From Bacteroidota bacterium (GTDB taxonomy: Bacteria > Bacteroidota > Rhodothermia > Rhodothermales > UBA10348), in assembly GCA_029262855.1 (NCBI GenBank), contig JAJCYP010000033.1:1-64000 (forward strand): a stretch of DNA of 64,000 nt. Reading direction: 5' to 3'. Numbering within the stretch: position 1 is the stretch's first letter; every line of letters starts with the position of its first letter. A program made the position numbers and the translations under genes. Below the pieces are notes generated by a model that was given only the letters and a program-made list of their open reading frames with translations, was not told the DNA's origin and made no database searches. This document shows, piece after piece, positions 17,761 through 26,486 of this stretch.

Positions 17761-18765
17761 CTAGGCCGCGGGGGCGTCGGCCTTTGGGGCGTCGGACTTC
17801 GGAGCTGCGGCCTTTGCACCGTCAGCTTTCGGAGCGGCAGCCTTGGGGGAGGCAGCTTTTGGAGCGTCGGCCTTGGGGGCGGCAGCTTTTGGAGCGTCGG
17901 CCTTCGGAGCGGCAGCCTTGGGGGCGGCAGCCCTTGCGCCGTCAGCCCTGGGCGTTCTGGTCTTCTTTGGGGGCTTTGCGGCCTTGGCCGCGGCCTCCTT
18001 CTCAGCTTCCCTCTCGGCCTGGCGGGTCTCTTTCTCGGCCTTGGCCGCGGCGTCCTGCGATTCCTTGGCCTTCGAACCCTCGGCGATAGCCTCGGCGATG
18101 ACCGACGTGATCAGCTCAATGGAGCGCTGGGCGTCGTCATTGGAAGGGATGGGGAAGTCAACGAGGTCAGGATCGCAGTTGGTATCGACCATGGCAATGA
18201 TCGGGATGTTCAGGCGCTTCGCCTCCTTCACCGCGATGTGCTCCCGGTTGATATCCACGATGAACAGCGCGCCAGGGAGGCGAGCCATGTCCTGGATGCC
18301 ACTGAGGACCTTTTCCAGCTTATCCCGCTCGCGACGGAGCATGAGGCGCTCCTTCTTCTTGAGCTGGTCGAGCGTTCCGTCATCCTCCATCTTGGCCAAG
18401 TCTTCCATGCGACGAATGCTCTTGCGAATCGTCTGGAAGTTGGTCAGCGTGCCACCGAGCCAGCGCTCGACGACGTAGGGAGACCCACAGTCGGCCGCGT
18501 ACTTGCGGATGATGTCACGGGCCTGCTTCTTCGTGCCGGTGAAGAGAACGCGCTTTCCGCGCTTGGCGAATCGTCCTGCTGCCTCGGCGGCTGCATCCAC
18601 ATAACGCTGGGTCTGCGTCAGGTCAATGATGTGGATCCCGTTACGCTCCATGAAGATGTGGGAGCGCATCTTCGGGTTCCAGCGACTGGTCAGGTGGCCG
18701 AAATGTGTGCCGGCCTTGAGCAACGCGTCGATTTCGAGGCGATGCTGGGGAGTGGTTTCACTCAT
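17761..18765 (-). CDS. rpsB: 30S ribosomal protein S2 with long Ala/Lys/Pro tail
   Basis: A 334-residue S2. The globular part (about residues 1-235) has [39 protein letters not shown] and [12 protein letters not shown]. It is followed by about 100 extra residues: a charged [11 protein letters not shown] stretch, then repeated units of the [14 protein letters not shown] kind. Bacterial S2 usually ends near residue 230-250, so this tail is a lineage-specific disordered, basic extension. The start is ATG 18765, where family similarity begins; a longer frame reaches 18843. It heads the rpsB-tsf unit. Confidence 0.96.
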
Positions 18766-18913
18766 CGTATGTATCGGTTTTTCCGCTACGGCCCTCACGT
18801 GGTGCAGAGGAACCAGCAAGCGCTGGCCACCCCCCCTGCCCATCAGGCCGTATGTGTGATAGGATTGGATGGAATACCCGACATCCAGCGGGAGGGCGAA
18901 AGCCCCAAAAATG

Positions 18914-19878: not shown

Positions 19879-19989
19879 CAGATTCCAGTCACGGAAGCAC
19901 GGTACACGCCTGTATAGCCCCTGAGTTTGCCGAATAGGGGTGTCCGCGCTGTTTCTTGATACATATTCCATGTCCGGGCGCTCTACAGG

Positions 19990-20691
19990 GTGTCCGATCG
20001 AAGGAAAAAACCCGTGTTTTCAAGGTTCTCACACAAATCAGATCTCTCCAGGCTTGATGGCCTGGTACGCCAGCTGCCATTCGATCTCGACGACGGCGCT
20101 GCGGTCGGCGCCCTGTATGCGGAGTGGAAGGCAGCGCCAGGCAAGCAGAATCAGTACCTCGTCGACTTGTGGACGTACTGCTACGTGAGGCGGTACTTCC
20201 TCGTCAAGTTCGTCCGGGGCGACGGCGGATACAGCTCGGGTGATCTGGAGATGGTGATCGAGAAAGCCTTTCAGAAGATCTCCGCCGGCCGCGAGACCAT
20301 TCGAGATGCCACCCGATATCCCAACTGGGTTGTGGTCACCTGCCGAAACACCTTCGTCAACTTTGTGACGCGTCAACCCGATCACATTCCCGTAGACCGG
20401 ATTGCCGAGCCGCGGGCCGACCCGGAGCCACTGGACGCACTGCATGACGAGGCGATTCGGGCATCGGCACTCGACGCCGCAATTCGAAGGCTCCCCGCGT
20501 ATCTGCGAGGGGTGGCGCGTCTGCGACTGGTAGAAGGCCTGGCGTACGAGGTCATTCAGGACCGGACCGGAATTCCCGTACCTTCGGTCCGAACCTACGC
20601 GCACAAGGCTGTGACGAGACTCCGGCAGGACAAGGCTTTCTTGAAAGGCATGGGTTACGAAGCCGAAAAAAATGTGTCAAGTAGGTCATGA
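19990..20691 (+). CDS. RNA polymerase sigma factor, ECF-like
   Basis: A 233-residue sigma-70 family protein with region 2-like helices ([37 protein letters not shown]) and a C-terminal region 4 helix-turn-helix ([37 protein letters not shown]). It lacks regions 1 and 3, so it is of the ECF type, although region 2 is divergent. Its stop overlaps the start of the next gene (ATGA), a membrane protein in the position typical of anti-sigma factors. The start is taken as GTG 19990; a GTG at 20014 is an alternative. Confidence 0.82.
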
Positions 20692-21494
20692 AGAGGCCCT
20701 CATCAGAGTTGGACATCCTCGCCGCATTCCTGGACGAGCCTGAGCGTCGGGCTCTGGAGGCGGACGCCGGGAATGACCTGGGTCGGGCGCAGACCATCGC
20801 GGAATCGTACAGGCTCAAGGATACCCTGGAGCGCGGGGGTGCCATCGAAGCCCGGGATCTGGATGACCTCGTGCTGGCTTTTGCCACCCTCGGAGACGAC
20901 CCTGTTTCCAACACCTGGCGCTCCCGAATCAGAGATCGACTGGGACAGGATCCGGTTGCGGCACAAAGAGCCGAGGATCTGCGGCAGCAGGTGCGGGGCC
21001 TGGAGGCGGGATCAGACGCCGCGGCCCACTTCGCCCGTCTGACCGGCCGCGCCGCCGCCCCGGGGCCTCGTCGCAGCGGGCTTTGGCTGGCCGCGGCCTC
21101 CGTGGTCGTTCTCGTGCTGGCCCATGGCATTTACGAGGGGGTTACAGAAGACCCTGTCCGACGGGCCGCCTGGTCACAGCTGGAGCGGCCCCGCCCGACC
21201 CGCGGTAGTGCCTTTGCCGCATCCGAGCTCCAGCGAGCCAATGAAATGGCCCTGGCATCAAGGAGGACTGTTCTCGGGCTGTGGCCCCGGTATGATCAGG
21301 CTCGCCTTCTGGCGGCGGACGCCTTGCTGACGGGACGGGATGATCCGCCCGCCGTACTTCTCCGCGCCCAGATACAGGCCGCGGCCGGGCAGTTCGAGCG
21401 ATCCCGCCGCACGCTGGAAGCCGCGGCCCAGAGTCCGGAGCCCGCAGGATGGCGAGCTCTGCGGCAGGTTTTGGCCCCGGACACGCTGCGTTGA
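20688..21494 (+). CDS. single-pass membrane protein, possible anti-sigma factor
   Basis: A 268-residue protein, translationally coupled to the sigma factor (ATGA overlap). It has a cytoplasmic part of about 125 residues rich in charged helices, one membrane segment near residues 127-145 (LWLAAASVVVLVLAHGIY), and a periplasmic part with TPR-like helices (RYDQARLLAADALL, AVLLRAQIQAAAGQFERSRRTLEAAA). No zinc-binding HxxxCxxC motif is present. Position and topology suggest an anti-sigma factor or sensor, but I do not recognise a named family. Confidence 0.6.
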   Translation: MKRPSSELDILAAFLDEPERRALEADAGNDLGRAQTIAESYRLKDTLERGGAIEARDLDDLVLAFATLGDDPVSNTWRSRIRDRLGQDPVAAQRAEDLRQQVRGLEAGSDAAAHFARLTGRAAAPGPRRSGLWLAAASVVVLVLAHGIYEGVTEDPVRRAAWSQLERPRPTRGSAFAASELQRANEMALASRRTVLGLWPRYDQARLLAADALLTGRDDPPAVLLRAQIQAAAGQFERSRRTLEAAAQSPEPAGWRALRQVLAPDTLR

Positions 21495-21666
21495 CGCGTT
21501 AAGGGAAGGGGTGGTCCGGTCTTTGCAGCCGGGCCGTCGTCGCCGTCTCGCGGAAACCGGGAAAACATGGGGAGCCCTCACGGCGTATCGTTGATGTCGG
21601 CCGCTGTTTCCGACTGGAAACCCTGTGCTGACGGCGGTAGATTTCCCCTCTTGACACACTGTCCTT

Positions 21667-22344
21667 ATGCCAGCCATGAAACGCACATTCACTCTCTTGG
21701 CCTTGGCCACTATCCTTGCCACGCCTGCATTCTCGCAGATTGGTGTGGCCATTCGGGCCGGCACACTGGGGCCGGGCATAAACGTCGCCTACGGCATTTC
21801 GGAGAAGCTGGCCGTTCGGGCAACCGGATCTTATCTGACCTACACGCGCACCGAGTCCATTGACGAAGAGGTTTCGGTCGAGATCAAGGGTGACGCCACC
21901 GTCGGTGCAATTGGAGTGCTCCTGGACTTCCATCCGTTCGGAAATTTTTTCAGACTGTCCGGCGGTGTCACCGCGAACCTCTTTGAGGTAAACGGAAACG
22001 GCCTGCCCACCGAATCTTACTGCTTTGGAGACGAAAACGCCGGCGTCTGTGATGGGAAGCTGTTTGCTCCGAATCGTCTTGGCAGCTTTGGCGCGACGCT
22101 CGCTTACAGTTCGGCCGTTGCGCCGTACGCCGGAATCGGCTTCGGGCGGGTTGCCGGCAGGAAACGGATCGGACTCCTGCTTGACATGGGTGCGCTGTAC
22201 ACGGGCTCGCCTGAGCTCGACCTGGAAGGCTCGGGCCTGCTTGCGCCGACCGCCTCACCAGAACAGGAAGACAGGCTGAATCAGGGAATCGAATCCTTCA
22301 AGTGGTATCCCGTCCTCTCGTTCGGCATCGCCATCCGCATTTGA
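21667..22344 (+). CDS. outer-membrane beta-barrel-like protein, copy 1
   Basis: A 225-residue exported protein with a signal peptide (MKRTFTLLALATILATPAFS) and then alternating hydrophobic strands ending in FGIAIRI, as in small outer-membrane barrels. It is a paralogue of the gene at 24281: both share the LGxG opening, a GALYTGSP/GALYTGGS segment and an L(L/S)PTAS segment. It is followed after 35 bases by a lipoprotein gene, and the same pair order recurs downstream. GGAAACC occurs twice upstream (21552 and 21616), which could be -35 elements of an ECF promoter. The start is ATG 21667 or 21676. Confidence 0.7.
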   Translation: MPAMKRTFTLLALATILATPAFSQIGVAIRAGTLGPGINVAYGISEKLAVRATGSYLTYTRTESIDEEVSVEIKGDATVGAIGVLLDFHPFGNFFRLSGGVTANLFEVNGNGLPTESYCFGDENAGVCDGKLFAPNRLGSFGATLAYSSAVAPYAGIGFGRVAGRKRIGLLLDMGALYTGSPELDLEGSGLLAPTASPEQEDRLNQGIESFKWYPVLSFGIAIRI

Positions 22345-22379
22345 ATTCCGCCAAGACAGGCGCATCAATTTTTAGCTCA

Positions 22380-24137
22380 ATGAGACCCATGAAATATTTC
22401 CCCCCAATCGCACTATCAGCCCTGATGGCGATGGCTCTCGTCGGCTGCGACTTCGATGCGGCAAAGGACGCATTCGAGGACTTCGATCTCGTCATCGAAC
22501 TGGAGCCCATCAACACAGTGGTCAACGGTATCGTCGTCGACAATTCCGACGGCAACTTGATCGCAGCCAGACTCGAATTCTCCGGTCCGGGGGCCAGTAT
22601 TCTGATTGATGCCTATTCCGATCCCATCACTTCGCTGGAAGCAGAGAGCGGCGTCGTCACGTTCGGCATCCAGAATGCCGTCGTACCCAGCGAATCTTCA
22701 CCGGTCGAGTTGACGGTAACAGCAAGCGCGGATGGTTACTACACCAACAGCCAGACTTTCGAGATTACCGAAACGGGCGACTCCCAGTTCACTGTCTCGC
22801 TTTCGAGTTCAAACATCTCCGCATCCGTGGGCGGAACCTCGTCCACGCGGGATACGAACACGACAACCGACTCTGGCGGAGCCGTCACCCAACAGGTGAC
22901 TGTGACCACGCAGCAGACGGCACAGACCAGTGCCACGGCCGCTGTCGCGGTCTCCCAGGGCGCTACGCCCGTAACGGCGACGGGCACGCCCTTGACCGGT
23001 CAGTTGACGATTGACCTGCGCAGCTACGACTCGGGTGCGGGCCTTCAGGCCCTGCCGGCTGCCGCCAGGCAACGCAGCGACGGCACCAACCAGGCCGTTG
23101 GCGGCGCAGCCTTCTTCAAGATGACTGATTCCAACGGAAACGTTGCCGTCGGTGCCGTTGCCGCCTCCTCCGGTATTTCCGCGGACAAGAGCGCGGGCAT
23201 CTGTACGGGTGGCATACTGATCAGCCTCAAGTCCTCAGACGCGGCGCTTCGCGCGTCGTATGACCAGGCTGCGGCGCTCAACCTGACGGTGGATGCCAAA
23301 GGGTATGCCTACACGCCGGCGGACGGCCAGAACATCCTCGTGGCCGACACCATCGTCGAAGAAGATGGATCGGGCGTGAAGGTGGATCTCTGCCTCGGCG
23401 GTGCCTCAACGGATCCGGGTTTCATCGACACATCCATCATCGGGGACGCCTCAGAAGGGATCATCTACACCTACGCTTTTGGTTCGAGCTCGGTCAACAC
23501 CGGCATGCTGAATCATCAGGTGACGATTGCGAACCTGTCCGGCTCCCAGAACATCCAGTTCACCATTTCAGGCCCGGGCCTGAACAGGACGGCAAACAAG
23601 TCAGTTGCCAACGGCGCTTACTCGCTCGCCACGCTCGTGGGTACCTCGGGAACGTTCGATGTGGTCGCCAACGCCAGCTACTCGCTCTCGGCCAAGTACG
23701 TTGGCTCCACGCAGGTGACCGCGGTCAGTATGTCCGACCCGCTCTCGGGAAGCAGCTCGCTCACCATGCCGGTCACCTCTGATCTGCAGTCATACAACAT
23801 CACCGCATCGCTCCAGTGTGATGATCCGAACACGCAGAAATTTGAGGTTCAGATCACCAGCCAGAGCCTCGACGCCGTGAGCGCCTTCTACCGGATTGCC
23901 AACAATGGCGAGTCCTGGACGGTGCTTGGCAAGAGTGCCATTACCTCGAAGGAGGCCACGGACGCACGCATTGAGATCAAGGGCAACCTGTCCCTGAAGC
24001 CTGCTACGCTCTATGAGCTCAAGGGCGTTCTGGGCAGTGACGCCTCCACCACGAGGGAGACCACGCCGGCCTCCGGCGGCAACTGGGTCATCGCACTGAA
24101 TACCGACGACGTCGGTATTTCCTGCACAGACCGCTAG
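22380..24137 (+). CDS. surface lipoprotein with Ig-like repeats, copy 1
   Basis: A 585-residue lipoprotein. The signal peptide ends in a lipobox (LMAMALVGC), so the cysteine near residue 23 is lipidated. The mature protein opens with a carboxypeptidase-regulatory-like/Ig-like beta domain (VNGIVVDNSDGN, PVELTVTASADGYYTNSQTF), followed by a Ser/Thr/Gln-rich linker and further beta-rich regions. It is paralogous to the lipoprotein at 24915. The partner is unknown; the adjacent barrel is the obvious candidate. A strong terminator follows. Confidence 0.75.
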   Translation: MRPMKYFPPIALSALMAMALVGCDFDAAKDAFEDFDLVIELEPINTVVNGIVVDNSDGNLIAARLEFSGPGASILIDAYSDPITSLEAESGVVTFGIQNAVVPSESSPVELTVTASADGYYTNSQTFEITETGDSQFTVSLSSSNISASVGGTSSTRDTNTTTDSGGAVTQQVTVTTQQTAQTSATAAVAVSQGATPVTATGTPLTGQLTIDLRSYDSGAGLQALPAAARQRSDGTNQAVGGAAFFKMTDSNGNVAVGAVAASSGISADKSAGICTGGILISLKSSDAALRASYDQAAALNLTVDAKGYAYTPADGQNILVADTIVEEDGSGVKVDLCLGGASTDPGFIDTSIIGDASEGIIYTYAFGSSSVNTGMLNHQVTIANLSGSQNIQFTISGPGLNRTANKSVANGAYSLATLVGTSGTFDVVANASYSLSAKYVGSTQVTAVSMSDPLSGSSSLTMPVTSDLQSYNITASLQCDDPNTQKFEVQITSQSLDAVSAFYRIANNGESWTVLGKSAITSKEATDARIEIKGNLSLKPATLYELKGVLGSDASTTRETTPASGGNWVIALNTDDVGISCTDR

Positions 24138-24200
24138 CCCCCGCTAGCCCGCCCCTTCGTGGGCCTGCGGCCCGCGCCCGTCGCGAGTTTCGCTCGACCA

Positions 24201-24234
24201 ATGCCCGCCCCTGAATGTCAGGGGCGGGCATTTT
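24201..24234 (+). terminator. Rho-independent terminator
   Basis: A perfect 12-bp stem (arms 24201-24212 and 24220-24231, ATGCCCGCCCCT and its complement) with a seven-base loop runs into TTTT. It separates the first barrel/lipoprotein pair from the second. Confidence 0.88.
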
Positions 24235-24280
24235 GCGGGTGTGCGGCATACGCATCCGGTTGTCTCGCTACCTTGAGGGC

Positions 24281-24931
24281 ATGTCTGCCCGATTCTTCGC
24301 CTGTCTGATGACCCTGATCCCCGCGGGACTGAGCCATGGCCAATCCTTGGAGTTGGGCGTGATCACGGGGAGCCTGGGCCAAGGTGTCAGCCTGTCCACC
24401 GCCGTTTCCGACAACTGGACCGTCCACATTCGGGGATTGTATCAGACGCGATCCGCCATTCGACCCTATTCCAGCGGCGGCCTGCGGTTTTCCTCCAGTG
24501 ACCGCACGATCTCCGGGGCCGCCAGTGTGTCGGTCGATCGGGATCTGCCCGGGCGATTTGGGATCACCGCAGGCATTTGGGCTCTGGTAGCCGAGAGAAG
24601 ACTGGCCCTGGAGCCGGTATCCGGAACGCTTTCGGGTACGGAGCTGACTCCGGAGGAGATTGGCACCGTCAGTGTGCAGGTATCGCTCCCACAACATCCG
24701 GTGCCGTACCTGGGGGCCTTCAGGACCGTGCATCTGTTCCGGAGGTGGGCAGCGAGAATTGACATCGGAGCCCTTTACACCGGCGGCTCCGTCACCGAGA
24801 GTCAGGCGACCGGCCGCCTGTCACCGACTGCATCGTGGCTTCGGGAGACCGAGAAAGCGGCCGCTCCGTCACGACTCCTTCCCGTTATCCAACTTGGGCT
24901 ATCCCTGGATCTCGATGCGCCGACTCGCTAG
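24281..24931 (+). CDS. outer-membrane beta-barrel-like protein, copy 2
   Basis: A 216-residue paralogue of the barrel-like protein at 21667. A signal peptide (MSARFFACLMTLIPAGLSHGQ) is followed by VITGSLGQGVSLSTAVSDNWTV, matching the LGPGINVAYGISEKLAV region of copy 1, and later DIGALYTGGS and LSPTAS segments at equivalent places. The protein ends in alternating strand-like residues. The ATG at 24281 is preferred over upstream in-frame starts because the signal peptide begins there. Its 3' end overlaps the downstream lipoprotein gene by 17 bases. Confidence 0.68.
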   Translation: MSARFFACLMTLIPAGLSHGQSLELGVITGSLGQGVSLSTAVSDNWTVHIRGLYQTRSAIRPYSSGGLRFSSSDRTISGAASVSVDRDLPGRFGITAGIWALVAERRLALEPVSGTLSGTELTPEEIGTVSVQVSLPQHPVPYLGAFRTVHLFRRWAARIDIGALYTGGSVTESQATGRLSPTASWLRETEKAAAPSRLLPVIQLGLSLDLDAPTR

Positions 24932-26486
24932 CGGACTGGCATTCGGCTGCGCGCTTGTCCTCGCGGCGTGCGAGTTCAGCGGTCCGCTCGAGGACGTGGG
25001 AATTGTGACGCCCCTGGTCGCGGTGGATTCATTTCGGACGGTAGTGTCAGGCGTCGTCCTTGACGCCGCCACCGGAGATCCGATTGGCGGCGCGGCGCAG
25101 CTTTCCTTCGCCGGCGAGGTGGGCCCCCTGATGAGGGATCTGTTCGGGGGTCCGGTGGAGGGTTGGATCGACAGCCAGGGTTTCGCCTCCTACGGCATCG
25201 CCAACAGCGTTCGCCCCAGCTCTGACCGCCCGGTCGAGCTACGCGTTATCGCGCGCGGCGCGGGATACCAGACCAACAGCGCACGCATCGAAATACGCCG
25301 CGATGGGCGACACGAGTTTCGGGTCGTGCTGGTGCGGGACGACCTCCTGGACGAAGCCGCGAGAGGAAACGCCGAGTTCGAGATCCGGAGCGACTCCACC
25401 GTGGCGTCAACGATTGTCACAGCCCTGTCGCTGGGCCGGGAAGTCTTGAGCGTTCGGGTCCCCGCGAACACGACCGTGACATCCGGCCACGACCACGGCG
25501 TCTCAGGCGAAAAAGTGCTGCAGGCAACCTGGCGGCCGCCCTCCAGCCGGAGCCTCAGCCAATTCCCGGGTGGCATGGACGCCGGCGTGAGACCCCCGGA
25601 CGGATCGGACATACTCGCAACACTTACCACCGGAGCCGTCATTTCGATCTCGGTACCCGGAACCGAGTCCCTCCTCTTCGGCGACTCGTTGGAAGTCACC
25701 TCCGTGATCAGTCCTGCGCTGAAGAGCTCTCGGACCAACGCCGCGATACTACCCGGCGACGTGGTGGACATCCATCGCTGGAAGCCCGAGGAGGGTATAT
25801 GGCTGGAGCACACCCAGGCCAGGGTTCGCCGCGTTGGCGGAGACCTGACTGCAACCTTCCGGAGTGCGCAGACCGGCACCTTCTCCATCGGCTTCCGAAA
25901 TGGGCACTGTAGCGACGCCCGGGTCACTCTGTCGGGCAACACCCTGGGCGGTTCGGTTGTGGCCTGGCATGGAACTCCCGGTCAGGCGGACGCCCTTCGC
26001 GTCTGGCGCTTCGGGCGGGCTCAACGGGAGGTGGTTCTGGAGGGCCCTCCGGGTTTTTGGCAGGGGACGCTGGAAGTGCGACACGGTCAGGACGTCGCCG
26101 GCGTGAGTTATGCCAGCCTCTGTGGCGCACAAATGGAGATCGCGCTCGAAAACTCACCCGCGCCGGACCTGATCGAAGTCACCGCCTCGCCCATGGGGTG
26201 CTCATCGTTCGGCGTGACCGATGTCCCCACCCTCTCCGTCCTGGCGATTCCCCGCCCGTCGCCTCTCAGCGGCGAAGGGGCCCTGCTCCGACCCCCATAC
26301 GTTGTGGATCGGCTTGCGCTGGCCCACGAATCGCCGGGGCGGACAACGGGATTCTCGTTCGGTCCCGTCCGGTCTGACGACACGCTGTACCTGATCCTTG
26401 GAGGCCGCCACTGGGTCTATCCACCCAGCGATAGCGGCGTGTTGGACGTCTCGAACATGGCCCGGGAGACCGGGCTCTGTACCTGA
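24915..26486 (+). CDS. surface lipoprotein, copy 2
   Basis: A 523-residue lipoprotein with lipobox VLAAC at residues 15-19. Its first 110 residues of mature protein match copy 1 at 22380 closely in order: VVSGVVLDAATGDPI, FASYGIANSVRPSSDRPVELRV, AGYQTNSARIEI, HEFRVVLV. The rest has diverged and includes many beta-rich segments and four scattered cysteines. It overlaps the upstream barrel gene, so the pair is cotranslated. The barrel and lipoprotein probably form a surface complex; this is inferred from the conserved pairing. Confidence 0.75.
   Translation: MRRLASGLAFGCALVLAACEFSGPLEDVGIVTPLVAVDSFRTVVSGVVLDAATGDPIGGAAQLSFAGEVGPLMRDLFGGPVEGWIDSQGFASYGIANSVRPSSDRPVELRVIARGAGYQTNSARIEIRRDGRHEFRVVLVRDDLLDEAARGNAEFEIRSDSTVASTIVTALSLGREVLSVRVPANTTVTSGHDHGVSGEKVLQATWRPPSSRSLSQFPGGMDAGVRPPDGSDILATLTTGAVISISVPGTESLLFGDSLEVTSVISPALKSSRTNAAILPGDVVDIHRWKPEEGIWLEHTQARVRRVGGDLTATFRSAQTGTFSIGFRNGHCSDARVTLSGNTLGGSVVAWHGTPGQADALRVWRFGRAQREVVLEGPPGFWQGTLEVRHGQDVAGVSYASLCGAQMEIALENSPAPDLIEVTASPMGCSSFGVTDVPTLSVLAIPRPSPLSGEGALLRPPYVVDRLALAHESPGRTTGFSFGPVRSDDTLYLILGGRHWVYPPSDSGVLDVSNMARETGLCT

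Follow-up and report, generated by a model that had tools for sequence, protein, structure and literature searches.

Genes for a small CarO-like barrel and, directly behind it, a large lipoprotein recur, as judged from profile searches and from the loci themselves, as an inherited unit in several families of Bacteroidota, and we propose, with a probability of about 0.6, that their products would assemble and function as a two-protein surface complex of the outer membrane, which is the best reading of the available evidence. The window, meaning the whole stretch of 64,000 nucleotides that was analysed, contains two such pairs at a locus flanked by rplM-rpsI-rpsB-tsf and dnaN-dnaA, both on the minus strand, between which six plus-strand genes encode, from 5' to 3', a sigma factor, a protein with a single transmembrane stretch (TM protein), barrel 1, lipoprotein 1, barrel 2 and lipoprotein 2 (Table 1). 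The arrangement originally predicted for positions 19990–26486, an ECF-type sigma gene overlapping a gene for a one-TM protein and followed by two tandem barrel-lipoprotein pairs, was confirmed together with all of its coordinates. The overlap of the sigma and TM genes amounts to four bases. For barrel 1 the start at 21676 is likelier than that of the longest reading, because relatives begin three codons later; the start codon of the sigma gene is uncertain, most relatives beginning about 12 residues further on. A strong hairpin separates pair 1 from pair 2, which suggests that the pairs are probably two transcription units, and a GC-rich hairpin, read by eye, also lies between the pairs in genomes G001 and G002. 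The two genes of pair 2 overlap by 17 bases (24915–24931), a feature in which pair 1 differs, and rpsB (window positions 17761–18768) carries a long low-complexity repeat tail.

Table 1. Features of the rplM-dnaN gap, in window coordinates
Feature	Position	Strand	Basis or remark
Conserved motif GTTTCTTGATACATATTCCA before the sigma gene	19951..19970	+	Common to the genomes of the genus
ECF-type sigma factor	19990..20691	+	Pfam Sigma70_r4_2, E 2.4e-6; NCBIfam ECF models match
Single-TM protein	20688..21494	+	Hydrophobic stretch at about residues 130–148; C-terminus weakly TPR-like
Barrel 1, CarO-like, cysteine-bearing type A	21676..22344	+	Longest reading from 21667
Lipoprotein 1, type A, extra cysteine pair C275/C338	22380..24137	+	Lipobox LVGC, acidic N-terminus
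Terminator-like hairpin between the pairs	24200..24234 (approx.)	+	15-bp stem, -39.2 kcal/mol, z -5.4
Barrel 2, fast-evolving, cysteine-free, B-like type	24281..24931	+	Homology and trees
Lipoprotein 2, type B-like	24915..26486	+	Lipobox LAAC; 523 residues

The two barrels of the window are 25% identical over 202 aligned columns (BLASTP E 3e-12), and pairwise alignment bore out that the segments GALYTG and PTAS are common to both; the lipoproteins are 35% identical over 135 residues (BLASTP E 3e-19). The original prediction of a duplicated module is correct insofar as barrels and lipoproteins are each homologous, but the trees and topology tests point to two old types and not to a recent copy. 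The second pair, which every one of the three genomes of the genus carries (G002 only partially, at a contig end), falls in the trees nearer to a cysteine-free type B than to the genus's own first pair, and residues 10–450 of lipoprotein 2 match second-type relatives with an E-value of 4.9e-31. The window thus probably holds one type A pair and one fast-evolving type B-like pair. A recent tandem duplication was rejected by AU tests against a clade of copy 1 and copy 2 (p 0.035 for the barrels and 4e-8 for the lipoproteins); the branches of copy 2 are very long, and its exact place in the trees is therefore unsure. Other families contain independent tandem pairs, or extra lipoprotein copies (loci L193, L181, L184 and L200).

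Within family f1, the lipoprotein accompanies its barrel in 22 genomes; elsewhere in the order the pair was detected in two genomes only, both of family f13, for an order total of about 24. In a phylum-wide sample of 395 genomes, the barrel is present in at least 69 and the lipoprotein in at least 39. Among the close barrels outside family f27 (at least 45 in this sample), a lipoprotein lies directly behind in 44 of 45 cases, 41 recognized by profile and three from reading the DNA, and behind the remaining barrel lies a shorter gene, lipoprotein-like but not matched by the profile; by profile alone, 41 of 50 barrels outside f27 have an adjacent lipoprotein. Independent occurrence of the two genes, named in the original prediction as the outcome that would speak against their pairing, was found only in part, for the barrel and chiefly in f27 and among remote barrels. 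The loci of five remoter barrels, when read, had no lipoprotein behind the barrel. In f27, represented by 32 sampled genomes of small size, the barrel is present without a lipoprotein match, as confirmed at five loci read, and the barrel can therefore work alone. Where the pair lies elsewhere on the chromosome, its neighbouring genes vary and offered no hint of function. In family f26 (L187–L189 and L191) the pair adjoins a recN-like gene of opposite orientation, and in G005 an opposite-strand barrel fragment (L087:5270–5461), truncated where the contig stops, follows the sigma and TM genes and has no lipoprotein after it.

By the distance and tree comparisons, the barrel and lipoprotein genes also have a common history. 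In 21 family genomes, the distances among barrels and those among lipoproteins show a partial rank correlation of 0.81 given ribosomal protein distance, a value reached in none of 2000 permutations; the ribosomal distances are, as expected, smaller within genera than between them. The same 12-member type A clade is recovered with full support in both trees. In all 12 type A pairs, two cysteines of the barrel, matching positions 119 and 128, fall in predicted loop 3 and are accompanied by two in the lipoprotein that match 275 and 338, whereas neither cysteine pair occurs in any of the type B pairs aligned; the lipoprotein belonging to the second barrel of G001 likewise lacks the pair in the alignment. 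In the tree, this match comes down essentially to a single split and hence does not represent many independent events. In G018 and G026 (genus g10) the barrels are unlike those of the rest of the genus, and the complete lipoprotein of G018 departs too. We tentatively entertain the broader notion of a Bacteroidota surface system not yet described, in which each small CarO-like barrel would have its matched lipoprotein, at least two types would be marked by co-varying cysteine pairs, and some genomes would run two insulated complexes side by side. A search of the open-access literature, a scope outside which most subscription journals fall, returned no description of this barrel-lipoprotein pair.

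Searched alone, neither the barrels nor the lipoproteins of the window matched any Pfam or PHROGs family above cut-off, and a single-protein scan of genome contigs with barrel 1 gave no match. A barrel profile is significantly homologous in sequence to CarO of Acinetobacter baumannii (PDB 4rl9, E 4.8e-12; a second structure is 4fuv). The NCBIfam CarO model (NF038067) matches the barrel with an E-value of 4e-8 and 32.9 bits against a curated equivalog cut-off of 300, so that the protein is a distant relative of CarO and not CarO itself. The AlphaFold model of barrel 1 (pLDDT 85.8) is barrel-shaped, and its top structural match in the PDB is CarO (Z 18.3, rmsd 4.9 over 182 residues, about 18% identity), which Foldseek also ranks first (E 1.1e-10). 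From the secondary structure of the model and the usual topology, the protein, of about 200 amino acids, is predicted to have eight strands, and its loops 3 and 4 were assigned in the same way. The eight-stranded fold and large extracellular loops are features shared with CarO, from which the window barrel differs in its score below the curated cut-off, its fixed lipoprotein partner gene and its phylum.

The lipoproteins are, as modelled, multi-domain β-sandwich proteins whose first domain is carboxypeptidase-regulatory-like. In the model of lipoprotein 1 (pLDDT 80.8), residues 44–144 align with the regulatory domain of carboxypeptidase D across 79 residues (27% identity; Z 8.5, rmsd 2.2), and PDB structural matches outside residues 44–145 were too weak to use. 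FAM171 and CarboxypepD_reg profile matches are weak, the FAM171 resemblance lying in the middle part. Parts of the chain therefore resemble these extracellular domains, weakly in both sequence and fold, but here they belong to a bacterial lipoprotein that has no catalytic domain and most of which is without a clear match. The N-termini, of which CDFQAAEDAFDDF is typical, contain three to six acidic and zero to two basic residues. The surface export signal of Bacteroidetes lipoproteins has been defined as Q-A-(D/E)2 (PMC5080379), and the lipobox and acidic N-terminus of the present proteins resemble it without matching the published consensus letter for letter, a resemblance on which their putative surface exposure is based.

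In the two-protein complex that we favour, the first gene would supply the CarO-like eight-stranded barrel and the gene directly behind it the large β-sandwich lipoprotein, which would be flipped onto the cell surface, aided by its acidic N-terminus, and would dock on extracellular loops 3 and 4 of the barrel; the barrel would serve as an anchor and possibly also as a narrow conduit for a small solute captured by the lipoprotein. The two-part unit originally proposed is upheld by a barrel-lipoprotein order that persists in further families and elsewhere on the chromosome and by the common history of the genes; the surface complex that the two proteins would form is probable. The closest parallels are SusC/SusD and BtuB/BtuG of Bacteroidota, in which the barrels are large TonB-dependent transporters with a surface lipoprotein. 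As in those systems, the barrel and lipoprotein genes are neighbours and the lipoprotein probably sits on the barrel; here, however, the barrel is small and eight-stranded and the lipoprotein unrelated. With a barrel of about 200 amino acids and some eight strands, and no TonB-receptor or SusD match in Pfam, the pair does not belong among the SusCD-like systems.

Anchoring and small-solute passage may be alternatives for such a surface complex. One possibility, which we would not put above a minority chance, is a role of the lipoprotein as surface adhesin or structural protein of the envelope, with the barrel only as its outer-membrane anchor and without solute transport. The resemblance of its first domain extends to pilin and adhesin domains besides that of carboxypeptidase, but middling Z-scores of this kind are common among β sandwiches. 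Uptake of small amino acids in the manner of CarO, with the lipoprotein capturing the solute, draws on the homology of the barrel to CarO and appears somewhat unlikely: that homology is distant, and we know of no lipoprotein partner of CarO. Passage of glycine and ornithine through CarO has been reported (PMC7573547), but CarO transport is itself disputed. CarO lacks a continuous channel (PMC7573547), which favours the anchor. Since the function of eight-stranded barrels such as CarO is disputed because they have no open channel, a conserved partner lipoprotein in several Bacteroidota families provides a concrete handle on that question.

The original prediction further placed the pairs under their own signalling circuit, formed by the sigma factor and its TM partner, and this was not borne out. 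The TM protein is probably an anti-sigma factor or sensor, given the gene overlap and its single TM stretch, and its gene also follows sigma in G001, G002, G005 and G010. In favour of a circuit controlling the pairs, pair and sigma gap coincide in 17 of the 22 family genomes with a pair, in both gene orders (sigma is on the same contig in 14, and three contigs end before sigma). A scan of the order genomes with a sigma alignment as query nevertheless found sigma in single copy in 92 of 114 genomes at E 1e-30, mostly without the pair. Conversely, the pair lies on a contig other than that of sigma in five family genomes (G003, G004, G012, G016 and G019) and is found outside the order, so that recurrence of the pair together with sigma is not obligate. 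Within f1, sigma precedes the pair (genera g1 and g8), follows it (g6 and g10) or is on another contig (g2 and g3). Genes of rplM and/or dnaN were present in the flanking DNA examined at 39 of 40 named sigma loci, and those of Salinibacter and Salinivenus are likewise next to rplM/dnaN, with no pair in the flanking DNA examined.

Promoter motifs argue in the same direction. CGTTTCT occurs upstream of 10 of 21 sigma genes and of none of 24 barrels, while nine of the 24 barrels are preceded instead by TA[CAT]CTT (2.0 expected), and no promoter motif is shared; as the sigma upstream motif is only putatively sigma's own target, its absence before the barrels is evidence against direct control and not proof. 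With up to three mismatches allowed, the 20-mer GTTTCTTGATACATATTCCA has a single occurrence in the whole genome. We consider control of the pairs by this circuit improbable: sigma has long occupied the rplM-dnaN gap in its own right, being fixed there with or without the pair, and is not the pair's demonstrated regulator; together with the TM gene it would constitute a sigma/anti-sigma unit distinct from the pairs in the same gap. The case illustrates how adjacency to a sigma gene can mislead when that gene is simply fixed at a chromosomal site. In genus g12, the sigma homologue has an in-frame TAG in three genomes (G028, G052 and G077).
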